A DNA stretch of 64,000 bases from contig NC_016023.1 in assembly GCF_000169195.2 (NCBI RefSeq), positions 1,364,001-1,428,000 of the forward strand, written 5' to 3'. This document shows positions 10,048 through 42,044 of the stretch, piece after piece (position 1 is the stretch's first letter; the number at the start of each line of letters is the position of its first letter). Source of the DNA: Heyndrickxia coagulans 36D1. Lineage in GTDB: Bacteria; Bacillota; Bacilli; Bacillales; Bacillaceae_C. Under the pieces are notes generated by a model. The model did not search any database. It saw nothing but the letters and a program-made list of their open reading frames with translations, and was not told the DNA's origin. Made by a program: the position numbers and the translations under genes.

Positions 10048-10082
10048 AAAAAAATAACCAAGCCTGTTTTAATATGCTTGGT
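10048..10082 (-). terminator. csfB terminator enclosing the stop codon
   Basis: Read on the minus strand, ACCAAGC pairs with GCTTGGT (10076-10082 and 10057-10063). The loop contains the TAA stop of csfB, and TATTTTTTT follows. Confidence 0.9.
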
Positions 10083-10281
10083 CATGTATACATTTTGGGC
10101 TTTGAACTGCTTTCAACTGTCGGACAAAATAGGAATAACGCGGATCTCCCGTATCGGTACGGACCATTTCCTTTTCGCAGTCACTGCAGATAAATGATGT
10201 ATAAAGATGGATGCCGTTATGTTTCAATTTCTCACAAACAATGCACATTTCCGGTTCATGTCTCAGGGCACTCCGATCCAT
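10069..10281 (-). CDS. csfB: Anti-sigma-G factor Gin (CsfB)
   Basis: Small zinc-binding inhibitor of sigma-G (and sigma-E) that prevents premature late sporulation transcription. Two CxxC knuckles are seen (CIVCEKLK and CSDCEKEM) with the conserved NGIHLYTSFICSDCE block. The start is the ATG at 10281, eight bases after GGGGG (70 residues); a GTG three codons upstream is possible. B. subtilis CsfB has 64 residues. The stop codon sits inside the terminator loop. Spore-former specific. Confidence 0.95.
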   Translation of the reverse strand: MDRSALRHEPEMCIVCEKLKHNGIHLYTSFICSDCEKEMVRTDTGDPRYSYFVRQLKAVQSPKCIHDQAY

Positions 10282-10301
10282 CTGCTCCACCCCCTGCTCA
10301 T

Positions 10302-10331: not shown

Positions 10332-10488
10332 ACAATCAAAGAGATTTTTTCAAATGTTGCAACGAGAAAGCGAAATGATGTATGGTATCGTATGCCGGTT
10401 TTTCAGGTGTGTGTATGTCTCAAAAGAACGCGATAAGAAAGAGCTTGCTGACAAATTGGGTACAAACTCAGAATCGGATTCGTTCAGC

Positions 10489-11193
10489 AAACCTTAACGA
10501 AGACGGGCTTTATGTGAAGGAAGAGACTCGTTTTTGTTTGCTTCCTTGACGTAGACGGGCTTTATGTGAAGGAAGGCCGTCTTTTTTGCTTGCTTTCTTA
10601 ACATAGACGCGCTCTATGTGAAGGAGGGCCCTCAATTTTCCGCGCTTCCTTAACGTAGACGCGCCCTATGTTAAGGAAGACCTTTGTTTTTGCTTGCTTC
10701 CTTAACATAGACGGGCTCTAAGTGAAGGAAGACCTTCGTTTTTGTTTGCTTCCTTAACGTAGACGCGCCCTATGTTAAGGAAGACCTTTGTTTTTGCTTG
10801 CTTCCTTAACGTAGACGCGCTCTAGGTAAAGAAAGACCGCCTTTTTTCCGCGCTTCCTTAATGTAGATGCGCCCTATGTTAAGGAAGACCTTTGTTTTTG
10901 CTTGCTTCCTTAACGTAGACGCGCTCTAGGTAAAGAAAGACCGCCTTTTTTCCGCGCTTCCTTAACGTAGATGCGCTCTAAGTGAAGGAAGATCTTCGTT
11001 TTTGTTTGCTTCCTTAACGTAGACGCGCTCTAGGTAAAGAAAGACCTTCGTTTTTCCGCGCTTTCTTAACGTAGACACACTCTATGTGAAGGAAGACCTT
11101 CGTTTTTGTTTGCTTCCTTAACATAGAGGGGCTCTATGTAAAGAAAGGCCTTCGTTTTTCGACGCTTCCTTAACGTAGACGGGCTCTATGTTC
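10489..11193. repeat. Array of 13.6 tandem 52-bp palindromic repeats
   Basis: Thirteen full units and a partial fourteenth start at 10489 and every 52 bp to 11165, with no insertion or deletion. Each unit has a left arm near CTTCCTTAACGTAGA, a five-base core near CGCGC, a right arm near TCTATGTGAAGGAAG, and a 17-base T-rich linker. The arms are complementary over 15 positions with one to three mismatches, so each unit can form a hairpin. Two linker classes, ending TTTTTGCTTG or TTTTTCCGCG, often alternate. Units 4 and 6 are identical, as are 7 and 9, and units 6-7 differ from 8-9 at two bases. Stops occur in all frames, so the array is non-coding. It lies between the rRNA terminator and csfB. 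Confidence 0.97.
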
Positions 11194-11452
11194 AATTTAC
11201 TTTTTGCACTTTTTGAGATGTTTTCTTAATTCCTTTCGTTACTCTAAAAATTCCCGTTCCTGTACGTAATATCATATCCATGGGAAACCTCTCTCTAGAT
11301 GTTCATTTCAAGGTGTACATTTAGATAATAGAGTGTCTTCCCATTTTTTCACTTATCTGCCCCTCCGAGTAAAATTTTACATATACTCGGCATTTATCTT
11401 CCCTTATCGTTGGGCTACGTCCTTCATACGATTGAAGCGAGGATGGTAAAAG
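11194..11452. other. Intergenic, no gene seen
   Basis: This AT-rich spacer lies between the repeat array and the rRNA terminator. The only structure noted is a 7-bp stem (CCGAGTA with TACTCGG, about 11366-11392). There is no convincing reading frame or promoter. Confidence 0.6.
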
Positions 11453-11487
11453 AAATAAAAAAACCACAGACCATTTGTCTGCGGTTC
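11453..11487 (-). terminator. rRNA operon terminator
   Basis: On the minus strand AACCGCAGAC and GTCTGTGGTT form a 10-bp stem (one G-U pair) with a short loop, followed by TTTTTTTATTT. It lies directly after 5S rRNA. Confidence 0.93.
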
Positions 11488-11494
11488 TCTTTTG

Positions 11495-11610
<116 letters not shown>

Positions 11611-11742: not shown

Positions 11743-11744
11743 TT

Positions 11745-14675
<2,931 letters not shown>

Positions 14676-15023: not shown

Positions 15024-16583
<1,560 letters not shown>

Positions 16584-41850: not shown

Positions 41851-41869
41851 AGGTATCAGTCGAATATTT

Positions 41870-42001
41870 TCCTTCGGGGCAGGGTGCAATTCCCGACCGG
41901 CGGTGATGAGGAAACTCAAAGCCCGTGACCCGTATTCTCCGGAATGCGGTGGATTTGGTGAAATTCCAAAGCCGACAGTGACAGTCTGGATGGGAGAAGG
42001 A
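41870..42001 (+). promoter_or_regulatory. FMN riboswitch (RFN element)
   Basis: All conserved RFN blocks are present in order: CCTTCGGGGCAGGGTG, AATTCCCGACCGGCGGT, AGCCCGTGA, GGATTTGGTGAAATTCC, AAGCCGACAGT and TGGATGGGAGAAGG. It senses flavin mononucleotide and controls the rib genes downstream. Confidence 0.98.
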
Positions 42002-42044
42002 TCAAACGTTTCATTGGAACGTGTATTTCATGATGCCGTTTTGC

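Follow-up and report, generated by a model that had tools for sequence, protein, structure and literature searches.

Results

The array and its setting

The window (the whole stretch of 64,000 nucleotides that was analysed) contains an rRNA operon that ends in a 5S rRNA gene, and a tandem array lies between this gene and gin/csfB. Both neighbours are on the minus strand, and the array is placed upstream of the start of gin/csfB. The features of the locus are as follows.

10072 to 10290 (open reading frame 10069-10290), minus strand: gin/csfB, sigma-G inhibitor (Pfam PF10764, E = 5.6e-21)
10436 to 10496, plus strand: right end (model positions 180-240) of a ~240-bp IS5-type MITE, here called E (nhmmer match and junction sequence)
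10489 to 11193, plus strand: 52-bp satellite array of 13.5 units (repeat finding and unit-pattern matches)
10749 to 10956, plus strand: two near-identical 104-bp blocks (units 10749 and 10801; units 10853 and 10905), a recent dimer duplication
11457 to 11491, minus strand: strong terminator-like site for the rRNA operon, which separates 5S rRNA from the array
11495 to 11610, minus strand: 5S rRNA, end of the rRNA operon (Rfam)
11743 to 14675 and 15030 to 16583: 23S and 16S rRNA of the same operon (Rfam)

Tandem Repeats Finder places the array at 10492-11191 (period 52, 13.5 copies, 79% matches, 0% indels). With up to three mismatches allowed, the unit pattern is found 13 times, each match exactly 52 bp from the next, and 100 shuffles of the window contain no match; this confirms the 13.5 units in exact register and free of indels reported in the initial annotation. 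Each unit consists of a 5′ arm (CTTCCTTAACGTAGA, positions 1-15), a 5-nt loop (16-20), a 3′ arm (TCTATGTGAAGGAAG, 21-35) and a T-rich 17-nt linker (36-52). The near-complete 15-bp palindrome described there is also borne out: 13 of the 15 arm positions pair in the consensus, and its palindrome score was reached by none of 300 shuffles. The same holds for the near-identity of the 104-bp blocks (units 6-7 and 8-9), and growth by block duplication, as in a satellite, is supported. Two unit classes were said to alternate; there are indeed two linker endings (GYTTG and CCGCG), but they alternate only loosely along the array. A CRISPR would have unique spacers between identical repeats, whereas in the 12 arrays that we compared the linkers recur and the arms vary, in agreement with the lack of CRISPR-type spacers noted earlier.

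Of the two ends of E, the right one alone is found at this array; the left side is truncated, and the remnant overlaps the first unit by a few bases. The window also holds a different dispersed repeat of ~118 bp (11269-11386). It is abundant in a relative that resembles strain DSM 1 (the DSM 1-like genome), where several copies are at contig ends, and it occurs in two further relatives. An FMN riboswitch (41866-42005, E = 2.3e-27) is ordinary.

A genome-wide family of 52-bp arrays

Searching the genome (3,552,226 bp, one contig) with the unit gave at least 77 matches, which merge by position into at least 40 arrays; a weight matrix applied to the loci covering the 40 arrays recognises 369 units. 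A simple gene finder based on codon usage calls no gene that overlaps any of the 40 arrays. A sample of 40 evenly spaced 20-kb stretches (800 kb in total) adds one 17-copy array near 2,578,700 and one diverged array near 636,200. Among the tandem arrays of this sample whose period is 20 or longer, 21 of 36 repeat every 52 bp; every other period occurs at most twice. The sampled 52-bp arrays include an unrelated family B (TGTCCTTTTGA-N5-TCAAAAGGACA) and relatives of it, so that many dispersed arrays and several sequence families of equal length, the marks of the 52-nt class, are both present. The array of the window belongs to what we call family A, a 52-bp satellite family of the Heyndrickxia coagulans group that is dispersed over the whole genome; it is one local copy and is not special to the rRNA operon. 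We considered solitary units as a mobile form, but the array loci and the 800-kb sample contain only one weak single match (2,672,933) and one unit inside the diverged 52-bp array (636,423).

Repeats of this kind have been described. Subirana and Messeguer found, in about 30% of the Bacillus species in their study, repeats that vary in sequence but keep a constant length of 52 nt, and their published list gives 57 repeats of 51-53 nt for NC_016023.1 (3.55 Mb) (PMC8161180). Their B. coagulans families 1_52_139, 2_52_35 and 8_52_18 are our families A, B1 and B2; the consensus of 1_52_139, GTgAAGgAAGgcCnTCnTTTTTcCncGCTTcCTTAACGTAGACGcgCTCTAT, judged by eye, is our computed unit consensus in a rotated frame. 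The window array (period 52, 13.5 copies, 0% indels) falls within the class as delimited there (51-53 nt, at least four repeats). The authors call the 52-nt families species specific with few exceptions, find them partly conserved between strains and describe the constant length as unexplained (PMC8161180). Table 1 of the paper lists nearly the same palindrome, loop included, for B. litoralis 42_52_9 and B. coagulans 8_52_18 (PMC8161180).

An exact-pattern scan of genome contigs, which may leave out records of the window's own genome, returned five stretches, three from H. coagulans DSM 1 and two from MAGs with single sites; we judge the latter two to be chance. The unit search across related genomes proposed in the initial annotation, run on 34 genomes of the family, found the unit in three, its own included, all from one genus (five of whose genomes were searched). 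Neither result points to spread of family A beyond the species group. Viral contigs gave no exact pattern match that would indicate a phage origin. The relative G031 has 52-bp arrays (L163:12891-13528 and L162:19748-19957) that are unrelated in sequence; the fixed length therefore recurs within the genus. Another relative, G033, carries a CRISPR-array-like series of GTCGCACTCTACATGAGTGCGTGGATTGAAAT repeats at ~66-bp spacing (L148:13228-14987).

Converging genes flank 17 of 39 arrays; among the other gaps of 100 bp or more, the proportion is 60 of 383 (odds ratio 4.2, p = 1e-4). In this comparison one of the 40 arrays was dropped at a locus edge, the gaps differ in length from group to group and short genes escape the gene finder. 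The finder also misses gin and the rRNA genes in the window, where the array truly lies between two minus-strand genes. An apparent depletion of arrays near the terminus, judged by eye from positions and GC skew, is too weak to claim.

Arrays joined to an IS5-type MITE

Comparison of the array loci among themselves revealed E, a repeat of ~240 bp with ends GGGCTTGCTGAA...TTCAGCAAGCCC, for which a genome search gives at least 52 matches, pieces included. E lies within 150 bp of 19 of the 40 arrays, and in all 19 cases its strand is that of the array. At eight loci (L062, L063, L077, L081, L086, L092, L093 and L098) the left part of E runs into the array through a shared junction, CTTGCACTTGAAA followed by CGC, the copy at L077 being slightly diverged. 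The left end of E is also found 3′ of the array at 10 of the 19, usually right after CTTCCTTAACATA or a close variant. Locus L092 (2879-4284) has E pieces flanking a 21-copy family B array, with a family A array directly after.

Target-site duplications accompany E-type elements (TACTTA at L061, CACTTA at the insertion sequence described below, 6-7 bp at composites). The composites of MITE and array have exact outer duplications at L064 (TAAGTA), L074 (TAACTTA), L088 (TATATA), L090 (CAAGTA) and L098 (TATTTA); the outer repeats are imperfect at L072, L077 and L081 (five of six bases) and match at only four of six at L085. Genome-wide there are 60 occurrences of the 12-base end of E, 32 in forward and 28 in reverse orientation, some of which do not belong to E; the backward control occurs once. 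An intact 1668-bp IS5-family element (L166, 1036-2703), with CACTTA on both sides, encodes a 513-aa IS5-family transposase (NF033578, E = 1.5e-130, above cut-off). This is the one whole copy in the genome, which otherwise has fragments of it. Its ends agree with those of E at 85% over 41 bp and 92% over 26 bp, so that the terminal inverted repeats of E (GGGCTTGCTGAA ends) are held in common with an autonomous element of its own genome. Because the ends are shared, we infer that the IS5-family transposase moves E. At L165 (5944-7966), E-type 12-bp ends enclose a transposase of another kind (432 aa) along with a stretch of 40 residues from the IS5 transposase; we take this element to be a nested or hybrid copy.

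Arrays linked to E are nearer the family consensus than those without it (0.843 versus 0.766, p = 6e-5) and therefore look younger. E cannot be the universal carrier, as 21 of the 40 arrays lack a match to it. Among 17 additional 52-bp array rows, only three are within 200 bp of E; taken together, these counts indicate that MITE carriage is not the sole route. The flanks of the 21 arrays without E, from 45 to 250 bp out, share no repeat with the flanks of any other array.

Orthologous sites in a relative

The joined flanks of eight composites were used as queries against the DSM 1-like genome. The site of L098 is clean: TATTTA is present once within 261 bp of contiguous sequence at 97%. The empty site of L064 is nearly clean, with a single TACTTA, the 20-unit array absent, the right flank collinear and the left flank different. 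At L074, L085, L086 and L088 the flanks are present without an array unit and the interval is rearranged (L086 has a weak E match), while L077 and L081 have no usable orthologous flank. An empty site could instead reflect precise loss. The 5S-gin interval of the same genome runs from 5S through ~150 bp of other sequence to gin and contains neither a match to E nor a unit that passes the threshold, and in the relative G030, where the gin side alone is in view, there is no array beside gin. Elsewhere arrays are shared: the DSM 1-like genome has units at the L080 site (at a contig end), four units against five here at L087, and a decayed remnant against 11 units here at L070. The composites of MITE, array and MITE with their outer duplications, the recurrent junction and the empty sites indicate that arrays can travel as transposon cargo.

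Constraint on the unit

Conservation is concentrated in the arms. Over 351 units the major base has a mean frequency of 0.90 in the arms, 0.72 in the loop and 0.68 in the linker. The information content of mirrored arm positions is correlated (Spearman 0.85, reached in 0 of 5000 permutations), and this is seen in register only. Pairing between the arms of one unit tells a different story from this symmetry. In 344 units from arrays of at least four units, the arms are complementary at 12.20 of 15 positions, compared with 12.24 when arms are permuted within the array, and the observed value is equalled or exceeded in 882 of 1000 permutations; when G-U pairs count as well, this happens in 745 (plus strand) and 708 (minus strand). 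Pair 4-32 falls below expectation (137 versus 160). The covariance test suggested in the initial annotation thus gives symmetric conservation of the arms and no covariation, and the compensatory or wobble-compatible changes claimed there are not borne out, G-U pairs included. Mirrored half-site preferences that do not covary are what one would sooner expect of binding sites for a protein dimer than of an RNA hairpin selected for pairing.

The spacing of the units is rigid. Successive hairpin centres are exactly 52 bp apart in 301 of 317 cases, although units differ from the consensus of their own array at 6.5 positions on average. This count involves no choice of gaps in the variable linkers, registers net length change only and scores a missed unit as one anomaly. 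Alignment of 208-bp blocks gives 0.149 indels per substitution within arrays, 0.160 among copies of E (n = 12) and 0.062 between arrays, and by this measure arrays cannot be said to have fewer indels than E (0.149 versus 0.160). On rigidity of spacing, we trust the spacing count more than the block alignment.

A/T content at the helical period

Fifty-two base pairs are five turns of 10.4 bp. The A/T content of 16 52-bp families (15 published and one from a relative, chosen by hand with related families and other lengths dropped) has a peak at the fifth harmonic, 10.4 bp, with z = 6.2, or 5.6 with dinucleotide shuffles; AA/TT steps give z values of 4.6 and 3.3 at this period. The eleventh harmonic (4.7 bp) is raised too across the families (A/T z 4.1 and 3.3). 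At 10.4 bp the families have a mean share of about 0.10, twice that of intergenic controls (0.049), in which a weaker signal is seen as well; seven of the 16 families are individually significant (p < 0.04). Family B arrays (n = 13) show it with z 5.4. Family A alone does not (p = 0.19), and its stronger harmonics are at 17.3, 5.2 and 4.3 bp.

Discussion

We suggest that the arrays spread as cargo of an IS5-type MITE, that the palindrome is a putative double half-site and that 52 bp corresponds to five turns of 10.4 bp; we put the probability of this reading at roughly 0.7. Arrays would move as cargo between MITE ends, mobilised by the IS5-family transposase that shares those ends, and would then lengthen or shorten in 52-bp steps. 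At the rRNA operon, E with its array may have inserted between 5S and gin and later lost most of E. The palindrome would offer a double half-site to a putative dimeric DNA-binding protein, and the 52-bp length would hold successive sites on one face of the helix. The function that we infer for the array is that of an ordered protein-DNA or curved-DNA tract, which would be best tolerated between converging genes. A protein-binding array was among the alternatives listed in the initial annotation, and it ranks first among the functional readings, the binding itself being putative.

The main competitor dispenses with host function. Slippage and unequal exchange would copy the units, MITEs would spread them and the copying mechanism itself would set the length of 52 bp, leaving a selfish or neutral satellite. 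The association with a MITE, the placement between converging genes, the absence of arrays from several orthologous sites of the relative and the decayed remnant at one of them are all in keeping with such a satellite. It sits less well with arms far more conserved than loop or linker and under mirrored constraint. Moreover, 52 nt recurs in many species with unrelated sequences (PMC8161180), and a passive process is not obviously enough for this. We regard a purely selfish satellite as possible but unlikely. Transcribed arrays might also supply structured RNA, with repeated hairpins acting as a sponge or as small RNAs, as Subirana and Messeguer proposed. These authors report RNA-seq reads that match satellite families of B. 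coagulans, and with them transcription in strain 2-6 (PMC8625621); inverted repeats are found at p ≤ 0.05 in 15 of 29 consensus units, and one 104-nt dimer folds better than its shuffles (z -5.3 on the plus strand, -6.1 on the minus strand). A promoter-like site on the minus strand (11352-11325, 9 of 12 matches) would read into the array, in a region with three promoter-like sites against 0.9 expected. However, the arms do not covary within units, and the single unit that was folded (one distinct sequence, present as two identical copies) does not exceed its shuffles in stability (z -0.01 and -0.46). An RNA role is in our view improbable.

Two further explanations have very little to recommend them. 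The initial annotation saw in each unit a hairpin followed by a T tract on the plus strand, and raised a stack of intrinsic terminators shielding rRNA synthesis, or else a fork barrier. Terminator-like sites are indeed in excess (seven in the 1.1-kb region scanned against 1.1 expected), and five of them are on the plus strand of the array, above shuffles, but five sites do not amount to a GC-rich hairpin and U run in each of ~14 units, and the folded unit has no stability beyond that of shuffles. In addition, the terminator of the operon (11491-11457) precedes the array, no sigma-70-like promoter was found on the plus strand between 10400 and the array, at least 40 arrays lie elsewhere in the genome and the orthologous 5S-gin interval of a close relative is without one. 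A terminator stack guarding the rRNA operon is not supported, and we hold this or a fork barrier there to be very improbable. BIMEs and REP elements are intergenic palindromes at regular spacing, and an element of that type, dispersed by a RAYT transposase and recognised by gyrase, would account for palindromes in regular intergenic arrays and for a bias towards converging genes, as with BIMEs. The RAYT (Y1 transposase) partner would be expected in the genome, where we find one partial Y1_Tnp match (31 bits, over the cut-off, 40 of 121 positions, with one stop), and the E-linked arrays have IS5-type ends and 6-7-bp duplications; we give a RAYT/REP origin hardly any credence.

Returning to MITE carriage and a five-turn unit, the reading can be taken further, if with considerable doubt: 52-bp arrays in general may be helically phased five-turn protein-DNA tracts, with a putative dimeric nucleoid protein on the half-sites and IS5-type MITEs distributing the arrays to gene ends. 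Were this so, a fixed length with free sequence would follow if the sites, and the A/T bends with them, had to face the same side of the helix. The published proposals are small RNAs or a nucleoid-stabilising protein whose polymerisation on DNA would require repeats of constant size (PMC8161180). A size-demanding protein is thus an earlier suggestion; the phased tract adds to it symmetric half-sites, a 10.4-bp rhythm in A/T content and a transposon as the vehicle. Symmetric arms that do not covary, together with a 10.4-bp rhythm across families, turn the puzzle of the length into a testable hypothesis of helical phase. Arrays within IS5-type MITE composites and an empty site provide a concrete route by which bacterial satellites may spread. 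If the transposon part alone is true, this is a worked case of a transposon-carried bacterial satellite, and the array beside the rRNA operon would be an ordinary insertion of a family known before.

The satellite family is already known, and the tie of about half of the arrays to an IS5-type MITE, with its probable carrier role, appears to be new. The main text of PMC8161180 mentions no transposons, insertion sequences, MITEs or mobile elements, and searches of an open-access collection, to which few subscription papers belong, found no prior mention of a MITE vehicle for such arrays. The arrays resemble family 1_52_139 in consensus, 52-nt period and species group; MITE carriage, empty sites, the mirrored constraint on the arms and the 10.4-bp A/T test are contributed by the present analysis.

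Comparison with other repeat systems sets the arrays apart. They differ from BIMEs and REP elements in being strict 52-bp direct repeats, in having E-linked copies with IS5-type MITE ends and in that no whole RAYT partner was found. The mycobacterial MIRU-VNTRs are some 40 dispersed intergenic minisatellite loci of variable copy number; the arrays here, by contrast, have a 52-bp period and palindromic units, and about half of their loci are linked to a transposon. E itself is like other IS5-family MITEs in its terminal inverted repeats, its target duplications and the ends that it has in common with a full IS5-family element. It is unlike them in forming composites in which two MITE copies, or pieces of them, enclose a satellite array as cargo.
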